Below are positions 3,801-63,688 of a stretch of 64,000 nucleotides of DNA, piece after piece. The notes under the pieces were generated by a model, which was given only the letters and a program-made list of their open reading frames with translations, searched no databases and had not been told where the DNA came from. This stretch comes from a virus, in the IMG/VR virus record IMGVR_UViG_3300028920_000050, positions 1-64,000 of that record, one strand, 5' to 3'. Made by a program: the position numbers and the translations under genes. The number at the start of each line of letters is the position of its first letter. Within the stretch, counting starts at the first letter, position 1.

Positions 3801-3812
3801 GTAAGATCTTAC
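3801..3812. promoter_or_regulatory. Operator-like palindrome, perfect copy
   Basis: GTAAGATCTTAC. It overlaps the TAA stop of 3809..4807 and lies 28 bases upstream of the start of 3225..3773. Confidence 0.75.
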
Positions 3813-6475: not shown

Positions 6476-6810
6476 GCCTTATCTCCATTTACAGAAAAGA
6501 TCCGCCTTTCTTCTACAGGTAACCCAATACTCTCAGAATACTTTTTGGCAGCAAGCATACCTTCCGAGTACCCATAATCAATATAGAACACATGCTTGGT
6601 AGCTACAAGAAGCCAAGCAAGCCCTGCCCGTATTCCATGCTTTCTCTCTTCTGGTACATTGTCATCAAGTATACCTTCCTGTGTATAAAGAAGATGAGAA
6701 GCAATAGGTGCTTCCCCTCTCATCAGGCTGTTACGCACACACAGTCTTGCGTACTTTACATTTTTCTCCACAGCCCCCGCATAGGGACTCTCAAGAACCA
6801 CTAGTTCCAT
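6472..6810 (-). CDS. DUF7768/deoxyribosyltransferase-like protein
   Basis: 112 aa. Pattern L-E-S-P-Y-A-G, N-V-K-Y-A-R-L-C, R-G-E-A-P-I-A-S-H-L-L-Y-T-Q, then A-G-L-A-W and D-Y-G-Y-S-E-G-M. This is the small Rossmann-like phage family related to nucleoside 2-deoxyribosyltransferases (DUF7768). Nucleotide or nucleoside binding is likely; the reaction is not known. It fits a nucleotide-metabolism role beside the methylase. GGAGG precedes the ATG. Confidence 0.75.
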   Translation of the reverse strand: MELVVLESPYAGAVEKNVKYARLCVRNSLMRGEAPIASHLLYTQEGILDDNVPEERKHGIRAGLAWLLVATKHVFYIDYGYSEGMLAAKKYSESIGLPVEERRIFSVNGDKA

Positions 6811-7141
6811 TACTACCTCCAGTTTCCTTTAGTGCTTTACCTAAGTCATAAGTAAGACCTTCTATCCTTTGTACATGATCATGGTTGACAGTATCGTGCA
6901 TTATAGTCCTGTATTTACTAAGTGACTTTATTGCCTTCTTAATAATTGACTTTAGTATCTTCTTGTGAAGCCTAAGCTTTTCAATTATACCTCTTGCTTC
7001 ATCCCCGCCAACTGCATCATACTTGATTTGTAAGATCTTACATTTATTCTCAAGCTTTTTAATAAGGCAAGGTGCACAGAGACCTGCTCCATGCACTTCG
7101 CCTTTACAACCCGATGTACCACACTGATATCTAGCTACCAC
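6791..7141 (-). CDS. Zinc-finger hypothetical protein
   Basis: 116 aa starting at GTG with AAAGGAGT upstream. C-G-T-S-G-C then C-A-P-C in residues 7-25 form a small zinc finger; the rest is a basic coiled-coil-like helix. Family not recognised; nucleic-acid binding is inferred. An exact operator palindrome (7030-7041) lies inside the reading frame. Confidence 0.65.
   Translation of the reverse strand: MVARYQCGTSGCKGEVHGAGLCAPCLIKKLENKCKILQIKYDAVGGDEARGIIEKLRLHKKILKSIIKKAIKSLSKYRTIMHDTVNHDHVQRIEGLTYDLGKALKETGGSNGTSGS
7030..7041. promoter_or_regulatory. Operator-like palindrome, perfect copy inside a gene
   Basis: TGTAAGATCTTACA at 7029-7042 lies wholly within 6791..7141, so the copy is kept in coding DNA. 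Confidence 0.6.
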
Positions 7142-7283
7142 ATCTGTACTCCTTTCGATCTATTAAATCAAGTATCCTTTGAAGCCACTCTCGATACATT
7201 ATACCTAATTTAAAAGGTATGGCATACCGCTTGTGAACCTTTTTACATATAGGACACTCCCACCCTGTAAGTAAACTCTTCAT
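7131..7283 (-). CDS. 50-aa zinc-knuckle small protein
   Basis: ATG at 7283 overlaps the TGA of the methylase gene (ATGA), with AGGAAGGGAAG upstream. The product begins M-K-S-L-L-T-G-W-E-C-P-I-C-K-K-V-H-K-R, giving one C-x-x-C plus H, and a further Cys near the end. Its 3' end supplies the ribosome binding site for the next GTG start. Function unknown; possibly an RNA- or DNA-binding knuckle. Confidence 0.65.
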   Translation of the reverse strand: MKSLLTGWECPICKKVHKRYAIPFKLGIMYREWLQRILDLIDRKEYRCGS

Positions 7284-7810
7284 CTTCCCTTCCTGAACTC
7301 TACTATTAATGATGGAAATGTAGCAGGGTTTTTCTTCTTCGTGCCGTAAAGCTTATTAAACTTACCGTCAAGCTTCTTCTGCTTCCATACCCACCGCCAG
7401 TATTTATCCGTACCGAACACCAGCCGGCCAGGAACAAACTGAATGTACTTGACATGCGGACGGAACTTAAGCTTCTTTGCATCCCACACGTAATTATGAT
7501 ACCACTTGGTATCTGTGCGTGCAGCAATAAGGAGAACGGCCACTTTGCACCCGTTCTTCATCACTTCATCATAGGCTTTCTTAACCCACTTCCCCACATC
7601 TTTAAAAGGCGGGTTAATAAAAACCTTCTTACCTTTCCATGACTGCTTAAGACCGTCCTGTTTCTCATTGAAGTATGTTTTACATACTGCATTGTCTTTC
7701 TCAGCACAGGGATCTAAAGTAAACTTGTACTTCTTATTGAGTTCCCGAAACAGATCTCTTGGTGTAGCCCACGCTTGATTTTTACTACTGAACATTAACT
7801 CTTTATTCAT
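7280..7810 (-). CDS. dam: Phage Dam-family DNA N6-adenine methyltransferase
   Basis: 176 aa, the usual length for the phage Dam family (phage_N6A_met). W-A-T-P-R-D-L-F at 14-21, L-D-P-C-A at 32-36 and the catalytic N-P-P-F at 66-69 are all present. It transfers a methyl group from S-adenosylmethionine to adenine N6. Many members recognise GATC, but specificity cannot be read from this sequence. If it is GATC, it would modify the centre of the exact operator copies in this window. A strong AAGGAG precedes the ATG. Confidence 0.88.
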   Translation of the reverse strand: MNKELMFSSKNQAWATPRDLFRELNKKYKFTLDPCAEKDNAVCKTYFNEKQDGLKQSWKGKKVFINPPFKDVGKWVKKAYDEVMKNGCKVAVLLIAARTDTKWYHNYVWDAKKLKFRPHVKYIQFVPGRLVFGTDKYWRWVWKQKKLDGKFNKLYGTKKKNPATFPSLIVEFRKGR

Positions 7811-8313: not shown

Positions 8314-9672
8314 TTACTCCTTCTTTAATAGTTGAGATTTAATTTCTTTAAAGTGGCGCTTGTTTTTTAGGAGCCAGGCATATAGCTTTTCTTTGCCTTG
8401 GAACTTATGCCCCTTGTACTTAAACCAGCCACCGCTTTGTCCGAACACGTCACACTGAAGGCCGACATCAAATATTTCAGAGTTCTCATCAATCTGGTAT
8501 TTCTTGATACCCAAGGAGGGTATATCTTGAGTATAGATATTGAAGTTGAACCAGTTGAAAGGGAGTCCCTGCTTGTCTTTATATATCTCAACGTTAGTCG
8601 AAAATCCAACGAACTTTTTGTTGTGCTTGAGTCGCTCAGGATTTTTAAACTTAAGCCTTTCAAGTGCCATATATCCCACCCCAAGCCCTCCAGTAGCTTT
8701 GAGATTATTGTCAGCAAAAACCTTAACCATACGGAGATCAGTACTAAGCTGATTAATAAGCATGAGACAGCACCACGCAATATTATTCTCATCAGTTAAA
8801 CTCCCTTCATTAAATCTTGTTACGATCTTTCGCACAAGTTTATTATTCATTCTGGCCTTTACCGCCATTGAGTGCTCAGTAAACTGCTTGGACATTTCCT
8901 CCCCGGTAAGAGAGGCGGCAATACTGTCGTACACAATAAAGTTGGCTATCTTCTGCGTGATTAGATCATCAAGTATCTGGTAGCCCTCCTCACTGTCGCG
9001 TGGGCGGTGGTATAGTAAACGGGAAATGTCTACACCCATCTCAATGAAGAACTTCATAAGGACAGACTGTTTCTTTTTAGCATCCCCGCCTTTAAATGAG
9101 ATCCACCCTTCCTTTGACAGAGCAGATAGAGCAGAGTTCTCAGCATCAAGAAAAGCACACACACGTTCTTCGTAGTCACCACAGCTAGGGCAGATCCGCT
9201 TATTACCTTCTATCTTAAATGGAGTATTACACCTATTACACAACCTCTGGTTTACAGCTATGTTCTTTATACACCACCAAGTCTTACCGCACTGGTTCGG
9301 TCCGGTGATCTCAATGATACCGCCCATATAGGTTCCCCCGCCCATTACAACGTCATGAGCAAAAGAACAGGTAGGTATCCTACGGATCGTTACCGCACGT
9401 ACATCCTTAGCGAGAGCAATAGTCCCTTCGCCGAACTTATCGTTCAGCTTTTTAAGATGTTTCGCAAGGTTTTTAGTACCGTCAGGATTAACCGGCTTAT
9501 TGGAGATTTTTGTTTCCACAACATCTGTTGATACTTCTCCTTCCTCCGCTGTTCCCTTCGACTTAACCTCTTGGGTCTTAGTTTTCGTTGCCTTTGCTTC
9601 CTTTCCCTTCGACTTTTTCTTCGCTGCACGCTTTTTCTCCTTCTTTTTTGTTACCACGAACTTCCTTGGCAT
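8314..9672 (-). CDS. RecA-like recombinase with inserted zinc ribbon
   Basis: 452 aa. Residues 1-45 are a Lys-rich tail. The core starts near 66 (N-L-A-K-H-L-K-K-L-N), with Walker A G-P-N-Q-C-G-K-T at 124-131, a Walker B strand I-V-Y-D-S near 238, an L-I-N-Q-L-S segment like RecA loop L2, and a RecA-like C-terminal motif with G-G-W-F-K-Y-K-G. Between Walker A and the next strand is an insertion with C145, C148, C161 and C164, a zinc ribbon that ordinary RecA lacks. It should form strand-exchange filaments in phage recombination and replication restart. An operator copy lies 17 bases upstream of the start. Confidence 0.87.
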   Translation of the reverse strand: MPRKFVVTKKKEKKRAAKKKSKGKEAKATKTKTQEVKSKGTAEEGEVSTDVVETKISNKPVNPDGTKNLAKHLKKLNDKFGEGTIALAKDVRAVTIRRIPTCSFAHDVVMGGGTYMGGIIEITGPNQCGKTWWCIKNIAVNQRLCNRCNTPFKIEGNKRICPSCGDYEERVCAFLDAENSALSALSKEGWISFKGGDAKKKQSVLMKFFIEMGVDISRLLYHRPRDSEEGYQILDDLITQKIANFIVYDSIAASLTGEEMSKQFTEHSMAVKARMNNKLVRKIVTRFNEGSLTDENNIAWCCLMLINQLSTDLRMVKVFADNNLKATGGLGVGYMALERLKFKNPERLKHNKKFVGFSTNVEIYKDKQGLPFNWFNFNIYTQDIPSLGIKKYQIDENSEIFDVGLQCDVFGQSGGWFKYKGHKFQGKEKLYAWLLKNKRHFKEIKSQLLKKE

Positions 9673-9688: not shown

Positions 9689-9700
9689 GTAAGATCTTAC
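9689..9700. promoter_or_regulatory. Operator-like palindrome, perfect copy
   Basis: GTAAGATCTTAC just upstream of the recombinase start. It contains the TAA stop of the small gene 9697..9855. Confidence 0.75.
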
Positions 9701-14478: not shown

Positions 14479-14490
14479 GTAAGATCTTAC
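14479..14490. promoter_or_regulatory. Operator-like palindrome, perfect copy
   Basis: GTAAGATCTTAC occupies the place of the ribosome binding site of the sugar kinase and abuts the stop of the nuclease gene. Confidence 0.75.
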
Positions 14491-14910: not shown

Positions 14911-15492
14911 TTATACCCCGAATGGATGTTCTATATCTTCAACATCTATATCGTCAAATGCTCCCCAGGTTCCGTCCTCTTTTCTTCTTTTTTCAAACTC
15001 CTCTTTATTGCGTTCATAACGCTCAACATTATTTTCTTTACGAGAAGTCCACGCAAGATTACTCACCACACAGTTATACCTATCAGGTAGTATGTGCCCG
15101 ACCTCATAAGTTTCATACTGAGGATCTACTGGAAGCCAAGCATGAGCTACTACCTGATGTAAACAAAAATGCTTTTTCTTTGAAGGACTCGACCCTACAA
15201 GTCTAACTCTGAAACTAGGATAATCCTGTCGTGGCTGTTTACCTCTCGGCACTATCTTAACAAGTAAATGAGATTTAATGTGACGTACCTTTGCACTTGC
15301 ACTCACTTCATAATTTGTATCAGGTATTTGTTTCCAACATTCAATTTGCAACATAATTAATCCGAGTATAAAAACGTACTTAGCTACAAGTACTCCTACT
15401 ATAGTAATAACTAATATTAAAAAGAAAAAATCAGTCAATAAAATCTTGACCCATGACCAAATGTAAGATATTACTTTTTTACCAGACACCAT
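14911..15492 (-). CDS. NUMOD4/HNH endonuclease-like protein with hydrophobic N-terminus
   Basis: 193 aa if started at the ATG at 15492, which has CGGAGATAG upstream and overlaps the previous stop. Residues 20-47 are then a transmembrane segment. From residue 47 it reads M-L-Q-I-E-C-W-K-Q-I-P, the typical NUMOD4 opening, then H-Q-V-V-A-H-A-W-L-P and V-G-H-I-L-P-D-R-Y-N-C...N-L-A-W, an HNH site in which the central Asn/Asp is altered. An alternative start is the ATG at 15354, which would leave the operator at 15463 in non-coding DNA as elsewhere. Likely a homing-type nuclease. Confidence 0.7.
   Translation of the reverse strand: MVSGKKVISYIWSWVKILLTDFFFLILVITIVGVLVAKYVFILGLIMLQIECWKQIPDTNYEVSASAKVRHIKSHLLVKIVPRGKQPRQDYPSFRVRLVGSSPSKKKHFCLHQVVAHAWLPVDPQYETYEVGHILPDRYNCVVSNLAWTSRKENNVERYERNKEEFEKRRKEDGTWGAFDDIDVEDIEHPFGV
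15463..15474. promoter_or_regulatory. Operator-like palindrome, variant
   Basis: GTAAGATATTAC, one change from the consensus and lacking GATC. It is in codons 7-10 of 14911..15492 if the upstream start is used, or in a 124-base gap if the later start is used. Confidence 0.65.
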
Positions 15493-15943
15493 CTATCTCC
15501 GCTTCGATCCATTTTCGTTTAAGCAATCTACGAAAGGCATCTGTGTATTTTTTCTTGCCACACACAGTACGTGCAGCATCAAAACAGTTTTTGATTAATT
15601 CCCGCATAGGTCGTGGGTAAAGACGGTCATGCCCCTTGCCACGATCCTTACCTTTAAACGGAGTTGGCATAAGTATACCTTTGTTCTCCATAAGGCGGAT
15701 CGTAGCAACAGTCATTCCGAGATCCTGTGCAATATGTTGCACCCTAAAAAACTCAACAAGCTTTCCATTGATAACTTCAAAAATAGGAGGAGGGGTCTTA
15801 CGTCTGCGGATCTTAACTCTCTCTTTGAGAGTAATTGCGTTACGTAGATAATAGTCATGGTTACGCTTCTTCCGCTTCGCCCCGATGTCACCCTTTCGGA
15901 TCTTCTTCTCTATGGCTTTTTCAGTATCAAGATCTCGTATCAT
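15479..15943 (-). CDS. MerR-like helix-turn-helix DNA-binding protein
   Basis: 154 aa. After a basic N-terminus, residues 65-115 read F-R-V-Q-H-I-A-Q-D-L-G-M-T-V-A-T-I-R-L-M-E, the MerR winged-helix pattern, followed by a wing-like G-K-G-H-D-R-L-Y. MerR proteins bind palindromes between -35 and -10, so it is one candidate reader of the repeated operator. No effector domain is evident. No clear ribosome binding site; a parS-like palindrome covers the gap before the ATG. Confidence 0.75.
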   Translation of the reverse strand: MIRDLDTEKAIEKKIRKGDIGAKRKKRNHDYYLRNAITLKERVKIRRRKTPPPIFEVINGKLVEFFRVQHIAQDLGMTVATIRLMENKGILMPTPFKGKDRGKGHDRLYPRPMRELIKNCFDAARTVCGKKKYTDAFRRLLKRKWIEAEIDGVW

Positions 15944-17871: not shown

Positions 17872-18337
17872 CTACTCCCTCCCCCATTTTTTCTTCATCA
17901 GCTGTAGCCTTATAACACTTGCCATCATACACCCGAAGTAACTTATTTAATTTAGGTGAATAACAGTAACCCTGGAACTTCTTGTCCTGCTCATAGTGAT
18001 TAAAAAAGTTAAGTTCATTACGGGCCGATGTTACTGCCAAAGTTACAATAACTGCATCCTTAAAGTACTTCCTCCCCTTAACAGAATGTGCCGGCACTCC
18101 GTCAATAAGATCAATAGGTTTAAGGCGCTTTATCCCGCGGCCTACTCCAATAATCTTCTTCTTTTTGTGAGCCTCTTTAACTCCCTCCACGTAGATCTCT
18201 TTAAGATGCTCCTTGGGGTAAACTACTACAGACTCGTCTGTATCGACCTCCTCCCCAAGATCAGGCTTGTCAGGTGTGTACTTCGGTCTTTCATTCAACT
18301 TCCTATGTAAGATATTACTTTCTGCTTTGCTCTGCAT
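17858..18337 (-). CDS. Hypothetical protein
   Basis: 159 aa from the ATG at 18337, chosen because AGGAG lies 8 bases upstream; a longer frame starts at 18376. No family recognised. Contains I-G-V-G-R-G-I-K-R-L-K-P-I-D-L-I-D-G-V-P-A and a small beta-rich C-terminus. A variant operator lies in codons 7-11. Confidence 0.6.
   Translation of the reverse strand: MQSKAESNILHRKLNERPKYTPDKPDLGEEVDTDESVVVYPKEHLKEIYVEGVKEAHKKKKIIGVGRGIKRLKPIDLIDGVPAHSVKGRKYFKDAVIVTLAVTSARNELNFFNHYEQDKKFQGYCYSPKLNKLLRVYDGKCYKATADEEKMGEGVDVRK
18307..18318. promoter_or_regulatory. Operator-like palindrome, variant inside a gene start
   Basis: GTAAGATATTAC inside codons 7-11 of 17858..18337 and just beyond the stop of 18315..18611. 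Confidence 0.55.
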
Positions 18338-21297: not shown

Positions 21298-22507
21298 AAT
21301 CAAACACCTTTTCATTACCCTTGAGATATTTATCAGGAAGTGATTTAAGTGTTAATCTAGGTTTAGCAATCAACTCAGGAAGTACCTTATCAAGAACACC
21401 ATCACGGATCAACTCTCCCACAATTACTTCAAGATAGAAAGCAATCGCATGCCGGTACTTCTTGTCCGCCATCTTTTCAGGATCAAACTTGCCATTTTCA
21501 ATAATGTAAGATATTACATTTCCATCGTTAATCCTGGCTTTACCGTTTCCACCAGATTTTTTTCTGGCCCTCTCTTCCATCCTGTTTATCACCTTGACAA
21601 TATTGGATGGATGCAAAACAGAAAACGGATTATATTTATAATCCAAATCACGATTAAATAAATAACCGATACAGCTGTCAGTATTGTACTTCTTCGGGTT
21701 CTCATACACATCAATAAGGGCGGGGATTATCTGAGCACAATTCCCTACTATATACTTCTTAAGCTGAACAGATAGTACCTTGTATGTATAGGAGTGCTTG
21801 TACTTCTTCTGGTGGAACATGCCTATAAGTAACCGTGCAACATCTCCCGCCTTCATGTTGTCCCACTCGTTGAAGCTATCCTCAGTAACATACCCGTAGA
21901 ACAATACACAGTCTGTTCCCCCGCCTATCTTGGGTGGCTTGCCGCTTTTGAGGTATCCCTCCGGATAAGCAATACCACACAACTCCGACCTGCGAAGTTT
22001 CTTAGTCTCAGTAGTAAGACCAGGATGTTTCATAGATCCTCCTTTAGAAGAAGAAACATGCTCCGAAGGAGCCATATTGTTTTCTTTCTTTTGTTTTCTT
22101 TTATTGTTTTCTTTTAATGGGTCCAATTTTTGAACCGGATCTGGTCCAATTTTTGAACCGGATCTGGTCCAATTTTTGGACCGGTTCAATTTTTGAACCA
22201 GTGGTTTTTTCCAGTTAATATCGAAGTGCCGTATCCCTCTCGGCCCTGTCTTAACTACTTTTATAGACTTCTTATTAAGAAGTCCGTTTACTGCAGTAAT
22301 AACTGTTCCCTTGGCCATCCCCAATTTCTGCATGAAGTATACAACTGCAAATTGTTTGTTGGGTTGAGTGTAACCAATGTTCTTTCTTACCATCAAGTTT
22401 AATATCTTGCACTCGGCAGCAGTAAAGTGTATTAAGTTATCCAGTATGCAGTTTGGGAAGCGTGTCCAGTTTTCCGTTGGTCTATCTATAGGTATTCTTT
22501 TCGTCAT
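21290..22507 (-). CDS. Lambda O-like replication initiator
   Basis: 405 aa. Residues 12-105 (N-W-T-R-F-P-N-C-I-L-D then A-A-E-C-K-I-L-N-L-M-V-R-K-N-I-G-Y) match the N-terminal winged-helix domain of phage replication protein O. Residues 105-140 are encoded by four near-identical palindromic iterons, so the protein contains repeats of V-Q-K-L. The C-terminal part is a helical domain that in O-like proteins recruits the helicase. It should bind the iterons in its own gene and open the origin. An operator lies 19 bases before the start. Confidence 0.83.
   Translation of the reverse strand: MTKRIPIDRPTENWTRFPNCILDNLIHFTAAECKILNLMVRKNIGYTQPNKQFAVVYFMQKLGMAKGTVITAVNGLLNKKSIKVVKTGPRGIRHFDINWKKPLVQKLNRSKNWTRSGSKIGPDPVQKLDPLKENNKRKQKKENNMAPSEHVSSSKGGSMKHPGLTTETKKLRRSELCGIAYPEGYLKSGKPPKIGGGTDCVLFYGYVTEDSFNEWDNMKAGDVARLLIGMFHQKKYKHSYTYKVLSVQLKKYIVGNCAQIIPALIDVYENPKKYNTDSCIGYLFNRDLDYKYNPFSVLHPSNIVKVINRMEERARKKSGGNGKARINDGNVISYIIENGKFDPEKMADKKYRHAIAFYLEVIVGELIRDGVLDKVLPELIAKPRLTLKSLPDKYLKGNEKVFDYV
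21506..21517. promoter_or_regulatory. Operator-like palindrome, variant inside initiator gene
   Basis: GTAAGATATTAC in the coding sequence of the replication initiator (V-I-S-Y-I region). Confidence 0.55.
22080..22200. other. Replication origin with four iterons inside the initiator gene
   Basis: Four copies of a 17-bp inverted-repeat iteron, GGTCCAATTTTTGAACC, at 22120-22136, 22143-22159, 22166-22182 (GGACC end) and 22183-22199 (GGTTC start). The first three are 23 bp apart, about two helical turns, separated by GGATCT. An asymmetric T-rich/A-rich tract (22080-22115) flanks them. This is the layout of the lambda origin in gene O. Confidence 0.8.
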
Positions 22508-22525: not shown

Positions 22526-22537
22526 GTAAGATCTTAC
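22526..22537. promoter_or_regulatory. Operator-like palindrome, perfect copy
   Basis: GTAAGATCTTAC overlapping the TAA stop of 22534..22716, 19 bases before the initiator start. Confidence 0.75.
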
Positions 22538-22716
22538 TTTTTCTTTTTAAGATCAGCCAGGGTAATGTTACGTAGATGATCCTGTGAAGTTTTACCTATA
22601 CACTTACACTTATAGTTTAGTTCAAGTGCTTCGTCAATGGTCAGATAAAATGTTATTATCTTCTTTTCGCCTTTAGGCAGCTTCCGCAGTTCTTTTCCTG
22701 TTAAGGGCTTTGACAT
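22534..22716 (-). CDS. Hypothetical 60-aa protein
   Basis: K-K-I-I-T-F-Y-L-T-I-D-E-A-L-E-L-N-Y-K suggests a beta strand and helix as in small ribbon-helix-helix proteins, but this is not certain. AAGGAGG precedes the ATG. A candidate small DNA-binding protein next to the initiator. Confidence 0.55.
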   Translation of the reverse strand: MSKPLTGKELRKLPKGEKKIITFYLTIDEALELNYKCKCIGKTSQDHLRNITLADLKKKK

Positions 22717-22870
22717 TTTTAACCTCCTTCAGTTCCTTGAGTCCAAGAGATATAGCTATCTCGTACAGTTCTACCTTTGATACACCAAGCTTGTTACTTA
22801 ACTTGGAAAACTCCAGGTTCTCTTTGGGAGTTATTTTGGGATGTATGTTTACGGTCCTGTCGTTACCCAT
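22673..22870 (-). CDS. Hypothetical 65-aa protein, possible RHH-type
   Basis: Contains I-H-P-K-I-T-P-K-E-N-L-E-F-S-K-L-S-N-K-L-G-V-S-K-V-E; the strand then helix-turn-helix-like order hints at a small DNA-binding protein. Overlaps the next gene by 44 bases and has AAAGGAGG before its ATG. Confidence 0.5.
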   Translation of the reverse strand: MGNDRTVNIHPKITPKENLEFSKLSNKLGVSKVELYEIAISLGLKELKEVKNVKALNRKRTAEAA

Positions 22871-24739: not shown

Positions 24740-24751
24740 GTAAGATATTAC
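24740..24751. promoter_or_regulatory. Operator-like palindrome, variant, at promoter start site
   Basis: GTAAGATATTAC directly after the -10 box of the promoter at 24752-24780, covering the expected transcription start and ending before GGAGG. Placement suits repression. Confidence 0.75.
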
Positions 24752-26463: not shown

Positions 26464-26475
26464 GTAAGATCTTAC
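26464..26475. promoter_or_regulatory. Operator-like palindrome, perfect copy
   Basis: GTAAGATCTTAC between the stop of 26477..26986 and the GC hairpin. Confidence 0.75.
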
Positions 26476-28137: not shown

Positions 28138-28831
28138 TGATTAACTCCAGCATTTTTTTCTTGTACATCTCTCCGAAAAGAGACTGTTGACCTGTCGCCA
28201 ACGTCTTTTTAAAAAGAGTTTTAAGACAAGCCATCCGTGCAGCCATATTGTTATAAAAAACAATGTTATGTTTTGTTTTCCAACAATGACTGCACGAATG
28301 GCAGTGTGAATTACACACGAAACCATTTTTATGTGGTGCCATGTGCTTCACAATACCTGTAGAATGAGTGTCGAGTGTTGAAGTCAACTTACAGGATTTG
28401 TTGATCTTCTGAGTACTCTCGTCTACAGAGAAGAAAATATTGAAATTCGCGGGGGCTTTGGAGAAATCAATATCTGTATTCCTTGTATAAGCCAGGAATA
28501 GGATCTTCGGGAACTCCTTGGCCGCTTTTACCCACGCATTGTAATATCTTACATTATAAAACTCACCAGAACTGTGCAGACGTATCCTTTTAACTCCAGT
28601 CTCAAGGATCGCTTCTTCGATCTGAGAACATAGATTTTGTGCAAAGTTACTACTCTGGCTCCACTCCATATTTCTCTGGAGAGCATCCTTGGTTGTCTTA
28701 TAGCAAAACCGCCCACGTTTCGCATAGCAGTTTTTGTTGCATATTGGGGTCCGGTATTTCTCACATGTACTTCTCGGTAAATTGAAACACCAAACATATT
28801 TACCTAGTTTACTTACATAGTTGGTCAGCAT
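28130..28831 (-). CDS. Gp88-like (radical-SAM-related) phage protein
   Basis: 233 aa. N-terminal C-F-N-L-P-R-S-T-C...C-N-K-N-C-Y-A-K-R-G-R, then L-H-S-S-G-E-F-Y and R-N-T-D-I, and a C-terminal C-N-S-H-C-H-S-C-S-H-C cluster. This matches the phage/mobile-element Gp37/Gp88 family with Cys clusters, thought related to radical SAM enzymes; its reaction is not known. An operator variant lies inside the gene. GGAGGG precedes the ATG. Confidence 0.7.
   Translation of the reverse strand: MLTNYVSKLGKYVWCFNLPRSTCEKYRTPICNKNCYAKRGRFCYKTTKDALQRNMEWSQSSNFAQNLCSQIEEAILETGVKRIRLHSSGEFYNVRYYNAWVKAAKEFPKILFLAYTRNTDIDFSKAPANFNIFFSVDESTQKINKSCKLTSTLDTHSTGIVKHMAPHKNGFVCNSHCHSCSHCWKTKHNIVFYNNMAARMACLKTLFKKTLATGQQSLFGEMYKKKMLELING
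28541..28552. promoter_or_regulatory. Operator-like palindrome, variant inside a gene
   Basis: GTAATATCTTAC on plus (GTAAGATATTAC on minus), in the V-R-Y-Y codons of the Gp88-like gene. Confidence 0.5.
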
Positions 28832-30548: not shown

Positions 30549-30586
30549 TTTAATTCTCCTTTTTATTTTAATTTGTAAGATCTTAC
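30549..30586 (-). promoter_or_regulatory. Operator plus conserved A-rich leader
   Basis: GTAAGATCTTAC at 30575-30586, then on the minus strand AAATTAAAATAAAAAGGAG directly before the ATG. The same unit recurs before 31967, 34782 and 36272. Confidence 0.75.
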
Positions 30587-31967: not shown

Positions 31968-32009
31968 TTTGTTTCTCCTTTTTTATTTTAGTTTAATGTA
32001 AGATCTTAC
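31968..32009 (-). promoter_or_regulatory. Operator plus conserved A-rich leader
   Basis: GTAAGATCTTAC at 31998-32009, then on the minus strand ATTAAACTAAAATAAAAAAG and GAG before the ATG. The operator also encodes the last residues (K-I-L) of 31993..32367. Confidence 0.75.
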
Positions 32010-32828: not shown

Positions 32829-33525
32829 CAGGTAGTAATTTATTTCTAAGGTAAGATCTTACACAATCTACAACTCGGTCCCGAAACATATGAAAAATCA
32901 CACCAATCTGTCTATTCTGGTAACCCTTGTACCTCATAGCGTTTACAAAAAGTGAACCATGATAGTAATGATCCTTTACGTGCTGGTATAGATGGTCATT
33001 ATTTTTGAGGGCTTCGCCAAGAGTATTGCCTTCCTTCGTGTTCATACAACAATACCAGCAATCACCTGATGATGGTTCGGGAAGTTTTTCCAGTTTCTTC
33101 ATTCCATCACAGTAGGACTTGATCATTTTATTGATCTTTTTAATTTTAGCCCAATCAGGATCCCGCTTTTCTGTGAGGAGTTTTCCTTCGTATGAGAACT
33201 TAATACCATCATAGAACATGAAGTGCTCTTCCTCTCCGTCTATACACACATACCATTGTCCTTTTTCCTGATAAATACCGAAGTTAGAGGGTAGATAATC
33301 ATTAAGTCTTTTCTTTGTTGTAATAGATCTCCACCCACCTGAATTAAGTACTATGTGGTCTTTGTGCCTTTCCAGAATTATTGTCTGGTGGTGTTTAAGG
33401 TAGTGTACTATTTCACCGTTTACACCTTCATCCCACGATACTGTAGAGTGGGCTTCTTTTTTTATATTGGTCTTACCTGTTTTGTCAGGCAGTAATTCTT
33501 TAATAGGTATATCTCTTCCCATCAT
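32812..33525 (-). CDS. Conserved-looking phage protein with C-W-Y-C-C motif
   Basis: 237 aa from the ATG at 33525 (GGAGGAAAAA upstream). The C-terminal half has S-G-D-C-W-Y-C-C-M and H-V-K-D-H-Y-Y-H-G-S-L-F-V-N-A-M, a pattern I associate with phage early proteins of unknown role. An exact operator copy is in its last 17 codons. Confidence 0.6.
   Translation of the reverse strand: MMGRDIPIKELLPDKTGKTNIKKEAHSTVSWDEGVNGEIVHYLKHHQTIILERHKDHIVLNSGGWRSITTKKRLNDYLPSNFGIYQEKGQWYVCIDGEEEHFMFYDGIKFSYEGKLLTEKRDPDWAKIKKINKMIKSYCDGMKKLEKLPEPSSGDCWYCCMNTKEGNTLGEALKNNDHLYQHVKDHYYHGSLFVNAMRYKGYQNRQIGVIFHMFRDRVVDCVRSYLRNKLLPDVATR
32851..32862. promoter_or_regulatory. Operator-like palindrome, perfect copy inside a gene end
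   Basis: GTAAGATCTTAC within the last codons of 32812..33525, 23 bases before the start of 32610..32828. Confidence 0.65.
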
Positions 33526-33965: not shown

Positions 33966-33977
33966 GTAAGATCTTAC
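33966..33977. promoter_or_regulatory. Operator-like palindrome, perfect copy
   Basis: GTAAGATCTTAC just after the stop of the DUF932 gene and before the GC hairpin. Confidence 0.75.
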
Positions 33978-34782: not shown

Positions 34783-34822
34783 AGATTTACTCCTTTTTAT
34801 TTTAATTTATGTAAGATATTAC
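34783..34822 (-). promoter_or_regulatory. Operator (variant) plus conserved A-rich leader
   Basis: GTAAGATATTAC at 34811-34822, then on the minus strand ATAAATTAAAATAAAAAGGA and G before the DUF932 start. Confidence 0.75.
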
Positions 34823-36272: not shown

Positions 36273-36310
36273 TTTTTACTCCTTTTTTATTTTAGGTTGT
36301 AAGATCTTAC
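36273..36310 (-). promoter_or_regulatory. Operator plus conserved A-rich leader
   Basis: GTAAGATCTTAC at 36299-36310, then on the minus strand AACCTAAAATAAAAAAGGAG and the ATG. TAAAAT four bases after the palindrome could be a -10 box, which would put the operator in the promoter spacer. Confidence 0.75.
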
Positions 36311-37099: not shown

Positions 37100-37111
37100 G
37101 TAAGATCTTAC
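37100..37111. promoter_or_regulatory. Operator-like palindrome, perfect copy
   Basis: GTAAGATCTTAC spanning the stop of the RadC-like gene, four bases before AAAGGAG of 36609..37085. Confidence 0.75.
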
Positions 37112-38325: not shown

Positions 38326-38721
38326 TTAGCAAGCCTTTTTGTAAGATCTTACTTTTCTACTTTTTTCGTAGCGGTAAGTATCTTTATCTTTATGAGTGGA
38401 AGAGGACTCAACAATAATACTATCCCTGAACCATGTAACACCTGTAAACCTGTGTACATCTCCGGGCTTTACTCTCATGTAGTCTCCCTTGCGGAGAACA
38501 TATATTTTATTATTGAGTTCCATGCGGACCTTGCCGCAAAGAATGATGAATACTTCATCTTTTAATTTATGATAGTGCAGACTGCACTGAAAACCTGATT
38601 TTAATACAAGTACTTTCGTACAATAGTCACTATTAACTATAAATCCTTCGAGACCCCACACTTTACGTGCGATCTCTATAAAGAAGTTTTCTTTAAATTG
38701 ACGTTTAAGATTTTTCCACAT
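38326..38721 (-). CDS. Cupin-fold protein (second copy)
   Basis: 131 aa. V-W-G-L-E-G-F-I-V-N-S, C-S-L-H-Y-H-K-L-K-D-E metal motif, and P-G-D-V-H-R-F second motif: a mannose-6-phosphate-isomerase-like cupin, related in layout to 6116..6475 and with a better preserved metal site. Sugar-phosphate handling is inferred. The last codons contain an operator palindrome. Confidence 0.75.
   Translation of the reverse strand: MWKNLKRQFKENFFIEIARKVWGLEGFIVNSDYCTKVLVLKSGFQCSLHYHKLKDEVFIILCGKVRMELNNKIYVLRKGDYMRVKPGDVHRFTGVTWFRDSIIVESSSTHKDKDTYRYEKSRKVRSYKKAC
38341..38352. promoter_or_regulatory. Operator-like palindrome, perfect copy inside a gene end
   Basis: GTAAGATCTTAC in the last ten codons of the second cupin. 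Confidence 0.65.
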
Positions 38722-39500: not shown

Positions 39501-39520
39501 TGATGTAAGATCTTACATCA
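39501..39520. promoter_or_regulatory. Operator-like palindrome, extended to 20 bp
   Basis: TGATGTAAGATCTTACATCA is a perfect 20-bp palindrome around the 12-bp core (39505-39516), in non-coding DNA. Confidence 0.8.
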
Positions 39521-39547: not shown

Positions 39548-39559
39548 GTAAGATCTTAC
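39548..39559. promoter_or_regulatory. Operator-like palindrome, perfect copy
   Basis: GTAAGATCTTAC 43 bp from the previous copy. A TATAAT at 39578-39573 on the minus strand would put the start of transcription just before it; its -35 (TTCCGA) is poor. Confidence 0.75.
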
Positions 39560-40832: not shown

Positions 40833-40860
40833 ATTATACAATAAATGTAACATCTTACAA
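40833..40860 (-). promoter_or_regulatory. Sigma70-type promoter with operator in the spacer
   Basis: Minus strand: TTGTAA (40860-40855), 16-base spacer, perfect TATAAT (40838-40833). The variant operator GTAACATCTTAC (40846-40857) overlaps the -35 and spacer. It would drive 40337..40600 and the genes below. Confidence 0.72.
40846..40857. promoter_or_regulatory. Operator-like palindrome, variant
   Basis: GTAACATCTTAC, one change from the consensus, inside a promoter. A weaker two-mismatch copy, GTAAGACCCTAC, is at 40915-40926. Confidence 0.7.
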
Positions 40861-40964: not shown

Positions 40965-40997
40965 GTAAGATCTTACAATTTATAATATTTGTGGCAA
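40965..40997 (-). promoter_or_regulatory. Promoter whose -10 is the operator
   Basis: Minus strand: TTGCCA (40997-40992), 16-base spacer, TAAGAT (40975-40970), which is the half-site of the exact operator GTAAGATCTTAC at 40965-40976. Confidence 0.6.
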
Positions 40998-41332: not shown

Positions 41333-41344
41333 GTAAGATCTTAC
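41333..41344. promoter_or_regulatory. Operator-like palindrome, perfect copy (tandem 1)
   Basis: GTAAGATCTTAC between the regulator gene and its terminator, 22 bp from the next copy. Confidence 0.75.
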
Positions 41345-41354: not shown

Positions 41355-41366
41355 GTAAGATCTTAC
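41355..41366. promoter_or_regulatory. Operator-like palindrome, perfect copy (tandem 2)
   Basis: GTAAGATCTTAC. The 22-bp offset is about two helical turns, so both copies face the same side of the DNA. Confidence 0.75.
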
Positions 41367-41387: not shown

Positions 41388-42284
41388 TTATTTTTTTAAC
41401 TTGCGGGTAATGGTGCGCTCATAATTTTCGGTAACCTTTTTGATATAATCAGTACAGGATTTTTCAACCTGTTTCAATTTATCTTTACCGATTTTGATCT
41501 TTAAAATGTCAGATACAATGTCAACAGCATTTTCAGCCAATAACATTTTACAGATCATTTCTTTTTGATCATTAGATTTTTTGTTTTCCTTTTTGATACT
41601 GTCTCGGTCAATTTGTTTTGACATTTCACTGATCATTTTTTCACGTTCTAAAATTGCATTGTGCTGTTTATCAATTTTTTCACGTTCTTTATTATCGGTG
41701 ATTTTTGCCGTATTTGGTAATAGATTTACTTCTTTTTTTGCCTGATCTATTCCGAGCTTGCAAATATACTTTTTATATTTGCTATCATCTTTTAAATTGC
41801 CGTTACCACTTGCAATATAGGTGATCAGCTTTTTGATGCTATCATCATTTAACTGATTTTTCTTGACCGTCTTTGCTAAGTTCATTAGAACCGAGTACGG
41901 TACATTTGTACCAAGTTCAATCTGAAAATTAGCAAAATACCCGGCTGAAATTAATTTCATTACTGCATTTTGTTTGACATGTAAACGGCTGAAATATTCT
42001 TTCCAGTATTCATCCACGACCGAAGATATTGACGGTTTTTTGGAATAATTGTCAGGATTTTTTTTATAATCTGTTAACTTTTCTGTCAACAGATCAGCAG
42101 TAAAATTATGTAACATGGCATGGTACACGATTTTACTTGCATTTTCATATTTTGACATGGTAATGATCTTTTTGAATTGATCATTACGATTGTTAACTAC
42201 CGTTAACATATTGCCCATGTCAATAGATGATTTAAAGATTTTGTCCGTGTCGGATTTTGATACGATTGTTTGATTTTTATTCAT
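41388..42284 (-). CDS. Candidate phage regulator, Lys/Asn-rich DNA-binding-like protein
   Basis: 298 aa, richer in Lys, Asn and Ile than its neighbours, so probably more A+T-rich. Residues 95-150 (W-K-E-Y-F-S-R-L-H-V-K-Q-N-A-V-M-K-L then Y-S-V-L-M-N-L-A-K) resemble the HTH-bearing part of plasmid/phage DNA-binding proteins of the DUF3102/Rep-associated type; the C-terminal half is coiled coil. It stands alone between two long control regions, with its own promoter (42399-42426), operators on both sides and a strong terminator. Autoregulation and control of the operator network are inferred. Confidence 0.65.
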   Translation of the reverse strand: MNKNQTIVSKSDTDKIFKSSIDMGNMLTVVNNRNDQFKKIITMSKYENASKIVYHAMLHNFTADLLTEKLTDYKKNPDNYSKKPSISSVVDEYWKEYFSRLHVKQNAVMKLISAGYFANFQIELGTNVPYSVLMNLAKTVKKNQLNDDSIKKLITYIASGNGNLKDDSKYKKYICKLGIDQAKKEVNLLPNTAKITDNKEREKIDKQHNAILEREKMISEMSKQIDRDSIKKENKKSNDQKEMICKMLLAENAVDIVSDILKIKIGKDKLKQVEKSCTDYIKKVTENYERTITRKLKK

Positions 42285-42318: not shown

Positions 42319-42330
42319 GTAATATCTTAC
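42319..42330. promoter_or_regulatory. Operator-like palindrome, variant
   Basis: GTAATATCTTAC in the leader of the regulator gene, followed on the minus strand by the A-rich leader and AAAAGGAAA before the ATG. Confidence 0.7.
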
Positions 42331-42875: not shown

Positions 42876-42954
42876 CTTGACACTTAAACAATAATACAAT
42901 GTAAGACCTTACATAATAGGTATGTATACCTATAAAGTATGTCTAAGTGTCAAG
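42876..42954. repeat. Inverted repeat flanking an operator and a second palindrome
   Basis: CTTGACACTTA (42876-42886) and TAAGTGTCAAG (42944-42954) face each other across an operator variant and ATAGGTAT-GT-ATACCTAT (42916-42933). Both arms contain TTGACA, but no good -10 lies 16-18 bp away. Confidence 0.55.
42901..42912. promoter_or_regulatory. Operator-like palindrome, variant
   Basis: GTAAGACCTTAC inside the inverted repeat. Confidence 0.65.
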
Positions 42955-43267: not shown

Positions 43268-43669
43268 CTATCTGCCACGCACCTGTCTTAGAAATATCTG
43301 GTTTCCCTGTGGATTACGTTTACCTATCCTTGGCTTACGCTTACCTGTAGATAAGAAGCTTTCACCAAACCACCCCTCCATTTTTTTGATATAGGCAGTT
43401 CGGCTTTTTATATGAAGCTTCTTTTTATACATGCTTATAGCAAGGTTGGCTTTCTGAGGATCTGTTAAATGCGGATTATAGTAGTACTCGTGTATTCCCT
43501 TGGTGTGTATACCAATATCCTTTCTCAGAGCTTTTACTTTTCCAAGTAACTTTGCTCTTTGATCCCCGCTTAATTTTGCACGTGCCCATCTGTGGGCTTT
43601 ATTTAGAACGTACTTTCTGCCCCGTATAAGCTTAGTCATTCCTACACGGAGCAACTGTTTTTTAGGCAT
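43268..43669 (-). CDS. R-W-E-R family small basic protein
   Basis: 133 aa, strongly basic, no membrane span. Near residues 8-29 it carries the shared motif G-M-T-K-L-I-R-G-R-K-Y-V-L-N-K-A-H-R-W-A. The rest is helical with Lys/Arg runs and a basic end. Last gene of the 47-43 kb cassette; no ribosome site, so probably coupled to 43675..44127. A virion-internal or nucleic-acid-binding role is inferred. Confidence 0.65.
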   Translation of the reverse strand: MPKKQLLRVGMTKLIRGRKYVLNKAHRWARAKLSGDQRAKLLGKVKALRKDIGIHTKGIHEYYYNPHLTDPQKANLAISMYKKKLHIKSRTAYIKKMEGWFGESFLSTGKRKPRIGKRNPQGNQIFLRQVRGR

Positions 43670-43674
43670 TAATA

Positions 43675-44127
43675 TTATGCTTTTCTTTTACGGACAGCTA
43701 TTCTGTGACCAAGACGATTAATTGCTATAGATCCCACAGTGAGAGTAGCCAATGCTGCAATTCCTTTTCCTGATGTCATCAAACCGGCAGATCTTCCTGC
43801 TATCCTCATACTTCTCTGTGCTTTCCTGTACATGGAAGCGCCTTTTATTAAACTGCCTCTTTTAAGCATCCGTTTGGCTTCACCACTCATACGTACTGCA
43901 CGTTTTAACTCAACATGGTGCATAATACGTGCTCCGCTTTCCACTGCCAAATGTGCTCCGCCAGTAATAGCACCAATAGCTCCAACACCTGCAGTTATCC
44001 CACCTGCAAGCTGTCGGCCCACACCAGCACGTTCCCATCTGGATGTTTTACCTAATTTATAGGTTCTTCCTTTTACTGTTTTGGTCATTCCATGTTGAAG
44101 CTTTCGTCTTTGTTTCATACGAGCCAT
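43675..44127 (-). CDS. R-W-E-R family protein with hydrophobic segments
   Basis: 150 aa. Motif H-G-M-T-K-T-V-K-G-R-T-Y-K-L-G-K-T-S-R-W then E-R, residues 12-33. Two weakly hydrophobic Gly/Ala-rich segments follow (L-A-G-G-I-T-A-G-V-G-A-I-G and I-A-A-L-A-T-L-T-V-G-S-I-A) and a basic end. It may insert into or lie on a membrane. AAGGAGGG precedes the ATG. Confidence 0.65.
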   Translation of the reverse strand: MARMKQRRKLQHGMTKTVKGRTYKLGKTSRWERAGVGRQLAGGITAGVGAIGAITGGAHLAVESGARIMHHVELKRAVRMSGEAKRMLKRGSLIKGASMYRKAQRSMRIAGRSAGLMTSGKGIAALATLTVGSIAINRLGHRIAVRKRKA

Positions 44128-44129
44128 AG

Positions 44130-44477
44130 TTAAGCCCTCCTTCTCTTTATTTTCTTTTTTTCTTTGATAACCATTATAAAACTGGCAATAGCACCAAGGC
44201 TTGTGGCTATCTGCTGTATATAATCAAATATCATTGATACTATTGACTTCTTCTCAGCTGTTGTATTGGTAACACGTGAGTCCCTTCTTGGGCGCCGAGT
44301 TGTCCGATCTGCGGTTGCAGGAGCAGATCTCCTGTATACAAATGTGGAGTTATCAGTTTTAGCTTGTATGGAGAAATTAACAAGTTTCCTTCTTATAAAT
44401 GAAAGTGCAGCAAGAACAATAAATACAATACAGACTGTTGTTAATACTTTTAATTTAATATCTTTTATTTTACGCAC
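44130..44477 (-). CDS. Two-span basic membrane protein
   Basis: 115 aa from a GTG with GAAGGAGGATAC upstream. Transmembrane segments V-L-T-T-V-C-I-V-F-I-V-L-A-A-L-S-F near 11-27 and I-A-T-S-L-G-A-I-A-S-F-I-M-V-I near 91-105; an Arg/Thr-rich loop between and R-R-R-A at the end. It lacks the R-W-E-R motif. Overlaps the gene above by 8 bases. Confidence 0.65.
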   Translation of the reverse strand: MRKIKDIKLKVLTTVCIVFIVLAALSFIRRKLVNFSIQAKTDNSTFVYRRSAPATADRTTRRPRRDSRVTNTTAEKKSIVSMIFDYIQQIATSLGAIASFIMVIKEKKKIKRRRA

Positions 44478-45012
44478 GTATCCTCCTTCTCCTCGGCCTT
44501 CTGTAATTGGAAGCAGTAAGGTGAGTAGCTATTCCACGTTTCCGCAGATTTTCCATTGTACTTGGTTTCGTATCAAAAGATATACGAGATCCAGGCTTTA
44601 AGTCTCTATTCATCTGTGCAGTAATTAGAGTATTTACTACACCGAGCCTTCTTTCAGAAGCAGCTCTCTCCCGCTTTCTTGCTGACATCTTAACCAAGAG
44701 TCCACTTACAAAAGCACCTGCACTTGTAGCAACTAAAGCCTTGTGTACTTTATAAGGTGCTTTCTTAAGTAACTTTGTTTTCTTACTGAGTGCTAAATAG
44801 CTGGCAGCTAGACCCAAACCAACCATACTCATGCGTTTTCCTAGACGGCCACGACTACTATAATCAAAACCTTCTATGTTCCTCTTACCTGTACGTTCCC
44901 ACCTATAGTTTTTATTCAGTTCATAGGTTATTCCGCTTACTGTTTTCTGTTGACCTATTTTAGCCTTTGCTTCTTTGGCATTTTTTCTGGCTCGTCTCTT
45001 GGTTGTTGGCAT
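44470..45012 (-). CDS. R-W-E-R family protein with hydrophobic segments
   Basis: 180 aa. Motif Q-K-T-V-S-G-I-T-Y-E-L-N-K-N-Y-R-W-E-R near 22-41. Hydrophobic stretches M-V-G-L-G-L-A-A-S-Y-L-A-L and A-L-V-A-T-S-A-G-A-F-V-S-G-L-L could be two spans. Very basic at both ends. Preceded by AAGGAGGAG and the 44-bp palindrome. Confidence 0.65.
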   Translation of the reverse strand: MPTTKRRARKNAKEAKAKIGQQKTVSGITYELNKNYRWERTGKRNIEGFDYSSRGRLGKRMSMVGLGLAASYLALSKKTKLLKKAPYKVHKALVATSAGAFVSGLLVKMSARKRERAASERRLGVVNTLITAQMNRDLKPGSRISFDTKPSTMENLRKRGIATHLTASNYRRPRRRRIRA

Positions 45013-45030
45013 GCACTCCTCCTTAAATTA

Positions 45031-45074
45031 AATGAAAGAGATAAATGTAAGAACTTACATTTATCTCTTTCATT
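45031..45074. promoter_or_regulatory. 44-bp palindrome built around an operator copy
   Basis: 21-bp perfect arms (45031-45051 and 45054-45074) around AA. The centre is the operator variant GTAAGAACTTAC (45046-45057). On RNA it would be a near-loopless hairpin just before the AAGGAGG of 44470..45012. Confidence 0.85.
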
Positions 45075-45097
45075 GTTCTGTCATTGTCGCAGTGACG

Positions 45098-45286
45098 TTA
45101 TGACATCTTGACAGGGCCGATACCGTTGTGTGCCTTCGGTGCAGGATACTTTCCTTTGTATTTGTCAATCTTATCTTTTGCACCGGGAGCCTTAGACGGA
45201 CCAATCCCATTACGGGCAAGCCCTGGCCGGCCAACCTGGTGTTTCGCACCTTTGTTCTTCGTGTTTTTTGGAAATGTTGCTGCCAT
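45098..45286 (-). CDS. Small protein with two N-G-I-G-P-x-K repeats
   Basis: 62 aa from the ATG at 45286 (AGGAGGAAAAC). Gly/Lys/Pro-rich with R-N-G-I-G-P-S-K and H-N-G-I-G-P-V-K. Unstructured and basic; no family recognised. Confidence 0.6.
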   Translation of the reverse strand: MAATFPKNTKNKGAKHQVGRPGLARNGIGPSKAPGAKDKIDKYKGKYPAPKAHNGIGPVKMS

Positions 45287-45314
45287 AGTTTTCCTCCTGT
45301 TTAATATATTAAAC

Positions 45315-45773
45315 CTATAGTAGTCCGAGTTCTTTTTGAACTCGTTTACGTACACGACCTAGAGCTTCCCTTGTACGTTTAGCCTCAGGTGTATTGACTG
45401 TACCATGTCGTTTGTGTGCCTCGTACACACTACTTAATTTCATATATCTTTTTCTTACTCCCGGATTTACTCGTCTAATCCCCTGCCTGAAAGATGACTT
45501 GGCCCTTACAGTAACTTTACGAGTAGACAATATAGCAAGTGTAATAAAACCAGCAGTAATAGCTGCACCCTTGGCATACGCTTTAAGCCTCATTCTTCTT
45601 CTGTATTTTTCATAACTTATGGTTGGACCGGAAAAATATGCAGACTCTTTTAGCGGAACCTTTATATAATCTCTTTCCCATCTTGAAGTACGACCAAGTT
45701 TATACCTCTTTCCTCTAACTGTTTTTGTAGCCCCTGGTCTTATACGTTTTTGATCATACTTCTTTCTTGCCAT
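45315..45773 (-). CDS. R-W-E-R family protein with one hydrophobic segment
   Basis: 152 aa. Motif P-G-A-T-K-T-V-R-G-K-R-Y-K-L-G-R-T-S-R-W then E-R near 12-33. Hydrophobic segment G-A-A-I-T-A-G-F-I-T-L-A-I-L near 70-83, then a basic helical region. Closest in motif to 43675..44127. Confidence 0.65.
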   Translation of the reverse strand: MARKKYDQKRIRPGATKTVRGKRYKLGRTSRWERDYIKVPLKESAYFSGPTISYEKYRRRMRLKAYAKGAAITAGFITLAILSTRKVTVRAKSSFRQGIRRVNPGVRKRYMKLSSVYEAHKRHGTVNTPEAKRTREALGRVRKRVQKELGLL

Positions 45774-45792
45774 AATGAAATCCAGATATTAA

Positions 45793-46227
45793 TTATTTAT
45801 TTCTTTTTCTTCGTTTATATGTAGAGTGTGCGATCTTTGTAGTAACAGCTGTACCTAATGCTACAGCCACACCTTTCTTACCGTGTTTAGCAATAGCTTT
45901 GCTTAGGGGCTTACTGGCTTTTCGTATAGCTGCTCCTGCTCTGCTTATTGTTTTACTTGCTTTACCTGCCTTATGAGAACTACTCTCTACTCTTTTACCG
46001 AAGCGTTTAACCTCTTCGCCAGCTTTCTTCCCCGCAGTTTTAAAACCGCGGTCTACTGCTTTGTTTAGACCTTTAGCCTTACCGACTGCTCCTGTCTTTT
46101 GTACCTTGACCCACCGCACAACTCCTTTGCGGATCTCTGTCAAACGGAGCATAGCACCAGCTGCTCCTTTCTTCATAGCACCGATTTTCTGGCCGGCAGC
46201 TTTCTTTATTCTTTTCATTCTTGCCAT
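45793..46227 (-). CDS. Very basic Ala/Lys-rich protein
   Basis: 144 aa, rich in Lys, Ala and Gly, with K-G-V-V-R-W-V-K-V near 34, possibly a worn form of the family motif, and a mildly hydrophobic G-V-A-V-A-L-G-T-A-V near the end. Histone-like composition. AGGAG precedes the ATG. Confidence 0.6.
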   Translation of the reverse strand: MARMKRIKKAAGQKIGAMKKGAAGAMLRLTEIRKGVVRWVKVQKTGAVGKAKGLNKAVDRGFKTAGKKAGEEVKRFGKRVESSSHKAGKASKTISRAGAAIRKASKPLSKAIAKHGKKGVAVALGTAVTTKIAHSTYKRRKRNK

Positions 46228-47175: not shown

Positions 47176-47187
47176 GTAAGATCTTAC
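47176..47187. promoter_or_regulatory. Operator-like palindrome, perfect copy
   Basis: GTAAGATCTTAC about 60 bases after the expected start of the promoter at 47254-47282 and 17 bases before the ATG of 46250..47158. Confidence 0.8.
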
Positions 47188-47253: not shown

Positions 47254-47282
47254 ATTATAATGTAAAATCTCAATTATTTCAA
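47254..47282 (-). promoter_or_regulatory. Sigma70-type promoter of the basic-protein cassette
   Basis: Minus strand: TTGAAA (47282-47277), 17-base spacer, perfect TATAAT (47259-47254). The -35 lies at the end of the upstream gene. Confidence 0.8.
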
Positions 47283-49914: not shown

Positions 49915-49915
49915 G

Positions 49916-51411: not shown

Positions 51412-51683
51412 CCTATTGCTCGTTTAAGTATTTCCTTAGCTTGAGATTTGTTTGCGCAGATGTATTTATCGTTATAACTTTTTCCGTCCCCGACCTGCAG
51501 ACCTTTCTTGTTCATCTTGGGCGGAATGTAACCAGAGACTGTAGCTATAACTCCGTTCTTCGCCTTATCAATGCTGAAGTTACTGTGCTCCATAGGTCGC
51601 TTTGTAACTCTCGGTATCTTTATACTTGGAGAGATTTTACTGATACCTGCCGAAACTCCTCTGCTCATTTTTCTTTTAGCCAT
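51408..51683 (-). CDS. Small basic protein
   Basis: 91 aa. Ser/Lys-rich N-terminus, then a small alpha/beta domain with K-N-G-V-I-A-T-V-S-G-Y-I-P-P and a C-terminal helix. Not recognised; a virion-associated role is possible from its place. GGAGG and a leader hairpin precede it. Confidence 0.6.
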   Translation of the reverse strand: MAKRKMSRGVSAGISKISPSIKIPRVTKRPMEHSNFSIDKAKNGVIATVSGYIPPKMNKKGLQVGDGKSYNDKYICANKSQAKEILKRAIG

Positions 51684-54328: not shown

Positions 54329-54340
54329 GTAATATCTTAC
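54329..54340. promoter_or_regulatory. Operator-like palindrome, variant
   Basis: GTAATATCTTAC just before the terminase start, the only copy in the 47.2-63.6 kb late region. Confidence 0.7.
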
Positions 54341-63676: not shown

Positions 63677-63688
63677 GTAAGATCTTAC
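63677..63688. promoter_or_regulatory. Operator-like palindrome, perfect copy
   Basis: GTAAGATCTTAC between the stop of the upstream tail gene and the patatin start. Confidence 0.75.

Follow-up and report, generated by a model that had tools for sequence, protein, structure and literature searches.

The genome described here encodes a DNA methylase of the Dam family and carries many copies of a short palindrome, most of which have GATC at the centre. The question raised by this locus is whether the phage enzyme marks the GATC-containing copies only, and so divides the palindromes into two classes of operator, as the original prediction proposed. The window (64,000 nucleotides) corresponds to bases 1–64,000 of a viral contig of 101,394 bp (IMG/VR record IMGVR_UViG_3300028920_000050), and the remaining 37 kb of the contig were also analysed. 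The minus strand carries nearly all the genes. Family matches include contractile-tail proteins, a portal, a major head protein, a family A DNA polymerase, a RecA/UvsX-like protein and a DnaB-like helicase.

The methylase and its predicted specificity

The 176-residue product of the minus-strand ORF 7280–7810 matches the Dam family PF05869 with an E-value of 2.9e-26 (92.6 bits, compared to a Pfam gathering cut-off of 28.1), which bears out the statement that the phage encodes a methylase of this family. The protein also matches PHROG 111 (DNA methyltransferase, E-value 1.8e-43), and its catalytic motif IV, of the type (N/D)PP(Y/F), reads INPPF and aligns with the NPPY of phi93. The score against NCBIfam TIGR01712 (74.8 bits) misses the equivalog cut-off of 97.05, and the enzyme is therefore filed under the Pfam family only. 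A search of solved structures with the methylase gave no match.

The methylase is 39% identical to Phi93_04 from Lactococcus phage phi93 (E-value 6e-43), in a co-linear alignment over the whole length. The Phi93_04 gene adjoins that of the large terminase, which matches the published position of M.Phi93DAM; the second methylase of phi93, the neighbour of Phi93_04, gives no meaningful alignment with the enzyme of the window. SMRT sequencing of phi93 DNA revealed G6mATC, which is absent from phages that do not have the gene, and DNA exposed to the cloned M.Phi93DAM is resistant to DpnII and sensitive to DpnI, which indicates methylation of GATC (PMC4190342). The homology to M.Phi93DAM thus strengthens the premise of the original prediction: the enzyme of the window is likely to be specific for GATC, and at this degree of identity the marking of GATC in the phage DNA is plausible. 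However, it has about 30 additional residues near the C-terminus, so that its specificity could differ from that of M.Phi93DAM. Some phage-borne adenine methylases, such as M.EcoGII, are non-specific.

GATC occurs 509 times in the contig, compared to 364 expected, and 22 of these 509 occurrences lie within the palindrome array. This over-representation is consistent with there being no need for avoidance. Among the tetranucleotides of the whole contig, CTAG and CGCG are avoided (0.43 and 0.48 of expected, respectively) and GATC is over-represented (1.40).

The start of the methylase gene is not accompanied by an array site. The first site upstream of it is 9689, ahead of the RecA-like gene, and the methylase gene is four genes downstream of that site. 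The interval 7280–7810, given with the original prediction, is the methylase ORF and contains no copy of the palindrome, the nearest sites being 7030 and 9689.

Sequence and placement of the palindrome

Twenty copies of the exact palindrome GTAAGATCTTAC lie in the window, which confirms the number claimed earlier, and 22 in the contig; none appears in 20 order-2 Markov simulations. A search with TGTAAGATCTTACA, allowing up to two mismatches, gives 31 matches where 0.45 are expected. The more general form GTAA-N4-TTAC is found 40 times in the contig, compared to 4.3 expected from Markov simulation, and the runner-up among pairs of 4-bp arms spaced by 4 bp, TTAT, is far behind with 17. Four of the 40 (14237, 56231, 59487 and 66529) lie within genes in a coding-like context; this is about the number expected by chance, and they were excluded as likely chance occurrences. 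The resulting set consists of 36 sites, of which 31 lie in the window, between 3801 and 63688 (Table 1), and the rest in the remaining contig.

The GTAA and TTAC arms are invariant in this set, as defined, and variation is confined to the central four bases: GATC in 22 sites, TATC in 7, GATA in 4, and GATG, GGTC and GTTC in one each. The sense-strand consensus of the 36 sites, AA(T/A)-GTAA-[G/T]AT[C/A]-TTAC-ATT, is an 18-bp palindrome, which can be shortened to (A/T)GTAA[G/T]AT[C/A]TTACA. Twenty-two sites are perfect palindromes. Only 12–18 bp are conserved per copy, and no conservation beyond the 18-bp palindrome was detected within 80 nt on either side of the sites. On the sense strand the two flanks differ, with A at position -1 in 10 of the 36 sites and T at position +1 in none (p=0.001).

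The sites track the ends of genes. When sense ORFs of at least 60 codons are considered, 18 of the 36 sites start between -4 and +6 nt of a stop codon, compared to 0.6–0.8 expected from genome or local shifts. The TAA of GTAA is itself the stop codon in 6 of these 18 sites, and in most of the others the stop codon ends 1–4 nt ahead of the site. The following start codon is at a variable distance (4 to more than 50 nt); many sites are 13–30 nt from a start codon, with a Shine-Dalgarno sequence in between. The density is highest from about 25 to 43.5 kb, where half of the sites (18/36) are located, and the gene-poor stretch at 39–43 kb holds the tandem pairs 41333/41355 and 39505/39548 in noncoding DNA. 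Some sites, such as 7030, 21506, 28541 and 32851, are within genes.

In two cases, 45047–45058 and 91740 of the contig, an array site forms the precise apex of a long perfect inverted repeat.

Searches for close relatives, with the DNA polymerase, RecA, terminase and two further proteins against IMG/VR and with several proteins against phage records, returned about 30% identity or nothing. In more distant relatives the motif is absent and there is no comparable palindrome. The 16-mer ATGTAAGATCTTACAT has 3 matches in IMG/VR and 13 in GTDB genomes from unrelated taxa, which is the chance level and gives no clue to the host. A search with the motif combined with a Shine-Dalgarno pattern returned 0 matches.

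Table 1. Methylase gene, candidate regulator genes and array sites of the window.
Feature	Coordinates	Strand	Remarks
Dam-family (PF05869) N6-adenine methyltransferase, 176 aa	7280..7810	-	NPPF motif; predicted GATC specificity
MerR-like HTH protein of 154 aa, speculative candidate for DNA binding	15479..15943	-	MerR_1 match, E 3.4e-4; weak CadR/PbrR match
298-aa ORF	41388..42284	-	own predicted promoter (42426-42399); palindromes on both sides
Palindrome, centre GATC	3801..3812	-	ORF ahead of it ends in the TAA of the site
Palindrome, centre GATC	7030..7041	-	within ORF 6791-7141
Palindrome, centre GATC	9689..9700	-	upstream of RecA-like gene 8314-9672; provides the preceding stop codon; closest upstream site to the methylase gene
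Palindrome, centre GATC	14479..14490	-	
Palindrome, centre TATC (sense)	15463..15474	-	directly past the stop codon of the MerR-like ORF
Palindrome, centre TATC	18307..18318	-	ORF overlap
Palindrome, centre TATC	21506..21517	-	in gene
Palindrome, centre GATC	22526..22537	-	
Palindrome, centre TATC	24740..24751	-	immediately past promoter-like TTGACA-17-TAGGAT
Palindrome, centre GATC	26464..26475	-	stop codon on one side, G+C-rich hairpin on the other
Palindrome, centre GATA	28541..28552	-	in gene
Palindrome, centre GATC	30575..30586	-	past stop codon
Palindrome, centre GATC	31998..32009	-	gene end
Palindrome, centre GATC	32851..32862	-	in gene
Palindrome, centre GATC	33966..33977	-	past stop codon, then hairpin
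Palindrome, centre TATC	34811..34822	-	provides stop codon
Palindrome, centre GATC	36299..36310	-	past stop codon
Palindrome, centre GATC	37100..37111	-	provides stop codon
Palindrome, centre GATC	38341..38352	-	close to 3' end of cupin gene
Palindrome, centre GATC	39505..39516	-	paired with 39548
Palindrome, centre GATC	39548..39559	-	paired with 39505; TATAAT-like sequence upstream of site
Palindrome, centre GATG	40847..40858	-	
Palindrome, centre GATC	40965..40976	-	
Palindrome, centre GATC	41333..41344	-	tandem with 41355; intrinsic terminator (41327-41285) right after
Palindrome, centre GATC	41355..41366	-	tandem with 41333
Palindrome, centre GATA	42319..42330	-	leader of 298-aa ORF
Palindrome, centre GGTC	42901..42912	-	
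Palindrome, centre GTTC	45047..45058	-	apex of long perfect hairpin
Palindrome, centre GATC	47176..47187	-	
Palindrome, centre GATA	54329..54340	-	past stop codon, ahead of terminase gene
Palindrome, centre GATC	63677..63688	-	past stop codon

GATC and non-GATC sites compared

The original prediction started from the presence of GATC in all 20 exact copies. This is true and circular, because the 12-mer that was searched itself includes GATC. It also stated that most of the variants lose GATC; the loss is real, and it concerns every one of the 14 variants rather than most of them.

The comparison of the two groups lends no support to the proposal that methylation sets two classes of operator. 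The GATC and non-GATC sites are coupled to stop codons to a similar extent (12/22 and 6/14, respectively, p=0.73), and they do not differ in their presence in the dense region of the genome (p=0.31) or in their location within genes (p=1.0). A single symmetric change, G to T with its mirror C to A, accounts for 11 of the 14 variant centres (p=6e-7 on the assumption that the 12 possible changes are used equally), and neither G to A nor C to T, the transitions that arise most often by mutation, is seen at the outer positions of the centre. Selection to escape methylation could have used any of the 12 changes, and the predominance of one rather resembles the profile of a binding specificity. The outer arms are better in the non-GATC sites, with 5.36 of 6 flank positions compared to 4.32 in the GATC sites (permutation p=0.0025), a relation that is kept when 66529 is added (p=0.0099) and lost when all four excluded sites are added (p=0.24). 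This suggests that centre and arms trade off, as they do when binding energy is additive. Binding to the 22 sites with a GATC centre may still be sensitive to methylation.

A methylation switch, in which the phage Dam would alter the binding of a regulator at the 22 GATC sites, the 14 others being constitutive, could provide either two classes of sites or a timing signal after replication. The relation of the methylase to a proven GATC enzyme and the position of GATC at the exact dyad of 22 of the 36 sites speak for it, and there is a precedent, since Dam methylation of a GATC within the Fur box of sci1 reduces the affinity of the repressor (PMC3145626). In pap and agn43, as in sci1, GATC also lies within the site of the regulator. 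However, these are single promoters whose methylation-sensitive regulator is known, whereas the array described here is dispersed and its regulator is presumed. Moreover, one in 16 palindromic tetramer centres would be GATC a priori, and the methylase gene, four genes away from site 9689, lacks a site at its start. Together with the likeness of the two groups, the single symmetric change and the compensating arms, this makes the switch highly improbable. The chance is slimmer still that the methylase tunes a silencer array at gene ends, with hemimethylated or unmethylated new copies binding the silencer differently and the 14 GATC-less sites being blind to methylation. Thus, the premise of the original prediction is reinforced and the epigenetic switch itself is speculative; nothing in the sequence indicates that the palindromes fall into two functional classes according to their methylation. 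Should methylation modulate the array after all, this would be, to our knowledge, the first case of a dispersed array under epigenetic control encoded by a phage.

Possible functions of the array

The sites are more reminiscent of stoperators, arranged as an array for a dimeric DNA-binding protein, than of operators at promoters. One such protein, from the phage or from the host, would occupy the approximately 36 palindromes and hinder RNA polymerase at gene junctions, as a roadblock or a silencer. A trailing ribosome is known to suppress the pausing and termination of RNA polymerase (PMC10135430). Behind a stop codon the polymerase would travel without a trailing ribosome, which may be the reason for the placement of the sites. 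GATC would be the best-fitting recognition centre, and good outer arms would allow TATC or GATA in its place. Methylation by the Dam-like enzyme probably extends to GATC in the whole genome (509 sites), mainly for protection against restriction, and the 22 array sites would be marked incidentally. This account as a whole, with a protein acting at gene junctions rather than on promoters and with incidental methylation, is held tentatively, at a little under an even chance. The palindrome, the in-gene sites and the spectrum of the centres make a dimeric protein on DNA preferable to a role in RNA. The asymmetry of the sense-strand flank counts against a dimer, since a purely symmetric site leaves it unexplained. 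No integrase, resolvase, ParA or HTH_3 repressor was found in the contig, so that nothing points to a temperate phage in which a silencer would serve lysogeny.

Classical operators, at which a repressor would block promoters that overlap the palindromes in the manner of P1 C1 or lambda, are unlikely. Promoter-like sequences do adjoin a few sites: 24740, directly behind TTGACA-17-TAGGAT, is the best example, and others are 39548 and the surroundings of 42319, where the 298-aa ORF has its promoter and leader. Site 24740 is, however, an exception, and the label of operator is not established. With the motif itself excluded, there is no enrichment in sigma-70 promoters upstream (p=0.71) or downstream (p=0.53) of the sites, bearing in mind that host promoters may differ from sigma-70; an initial enrichment was an artefact of scoring the TAAGAT within the motif as a -10 box and vanished with this exclusion. 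No motif occurs at a fixed distance from the sites, and many sites are separated from a start codon by 13–30 nt and a Shine-Dalgarno sequence. Unlikely as well is an RNA element, in which GUAA-N4-UUAC would form a stem-loop in the mRNA past the stop codon and act as a processing site, a protector of the 3' end or a translational operator. Such an element would explain the sites at the apex of hairpins (45047 and 91740), several sites next to terminators, the position between stop codon and Shine-Dalgarno sequence, the strand-asymmetric flank and the loop-like variability of the centre alone. However, many sites have only four A/U-rich pairs in the stem (about -0.8 kcal/mol), the stem probability in a 60-nt context is below 0.1 for about a third of the sites, several sites lie within genes, and an Rfam search gave no match. 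The arms, being invariant, provide no covariation signal for an RNA stem. A non-regulatory repeat, either marking the boundaries of recombining modules or mobile by itself, is improbable: it would account for the placement at gene junctions and for the near identity of the copies, but the conservation is limited to 12–18 bp, the centres are constrained, several copies are within genes, and the two tandem pairs lie in noncoding DNA.

The stoperators of Cluster A mycobacteriophages (L5, Bxb1) are the closest functional analogy for the protein-bound array. They consist of 20 to more than 30 near-identical short sites throughout the genome, many of them in short intergenic gaps and most of them not associated with promoters (PMC6550527; PMC9283540). 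Similarly, the 36 sites described here are dispersed and nearly identical, 18 of them at stop codons, and they may likewise block elongation. However, the stoperators are asymmetric sequences of 13–14 bp that follow the direction of transcription and bind a monomer, whereas the array is made of palindromes with GATC or TATC centres that hug stop codons; with 22 perfect palindromes, it has only a weak asymmetry in the flank. The Rep-type repressor, integrase and ParA of the stoperator phages were not found in this contig. If confirmed, the array would represent a stoperator-like control outside the mycobacteriophages, built on symmetric sites.

Other phages share some of these features. P1 has 22 dispersed C1 repressor sites in one genome (PMC8546580) and also encodes a GATC methylase, the methylation affecting packaging (PMC4190342), so that dispersed sites and a phage-encoded Dam coexist there as they do here. 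However, the P1 operator is an asymmetric 17-bp sequence without GATC, the methylation acts on packaging and not on the C1 operators, and P1 is temperate. In SPbeta, a large phage, a conserved short element (SPBRE) found at several intergenic or promoter positions is bound by the master repressor MrpR (PMC10516654). Unlike the array, it has about 10 sites that are linked to promoters and share a 15-bp motif. The fold of MrpR is that of a tyrosine recombinase, and a sequence search of this contig gave no PF00589 match. The SAS/ESAS of Cluster K mycobacteriophages are also dispersed repeats at gene junctions, whose binding partner is not known (PMC3203893), but SAS track start codons whereas the array tracks stop codons, with a variable distance to the start.

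No array-binding protein was identified in the contig, where two ORFs stand out. The MerR_1 match came from a batch of small ORFs and probably belongs to the ORF 15479–15943, to judge from its sequence and from the weak CadR/PbrR match; this MerR-like protein is a speculative candidate for binding the array. The 298-aa ORF, equally speculative as a regulator, has a predicted promoter of its own (TTGACA-16-TACAAT) and no family or phage match; its structure prediction was uninformative (pLDDT 38). The ORF is unusually A+T-rich (31% GC) and GATC-rich, and a second palindrome, GTAATATTAC, is present in two copies (42352 and 42447), one on either side of its promoter. A 65-aa ORF (22673–22870) was considered as a ribbon-helix-helix protein and rejected, the model having no strand and no match in the PDB.

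Elsewhere in the window, matches to glycosyltransferase family 9, Capsule_synth, radical SAM and a small methyltransferase point to a probable sugar or capsule gene cluster, which appears to be located at 47274–51683. The very basic proteins encoded at 43268–46227, 46250–47158 and 52380–52568 have in common a short motif resembling T..I.G..Y.LNK.HRWER, a repeated domain.
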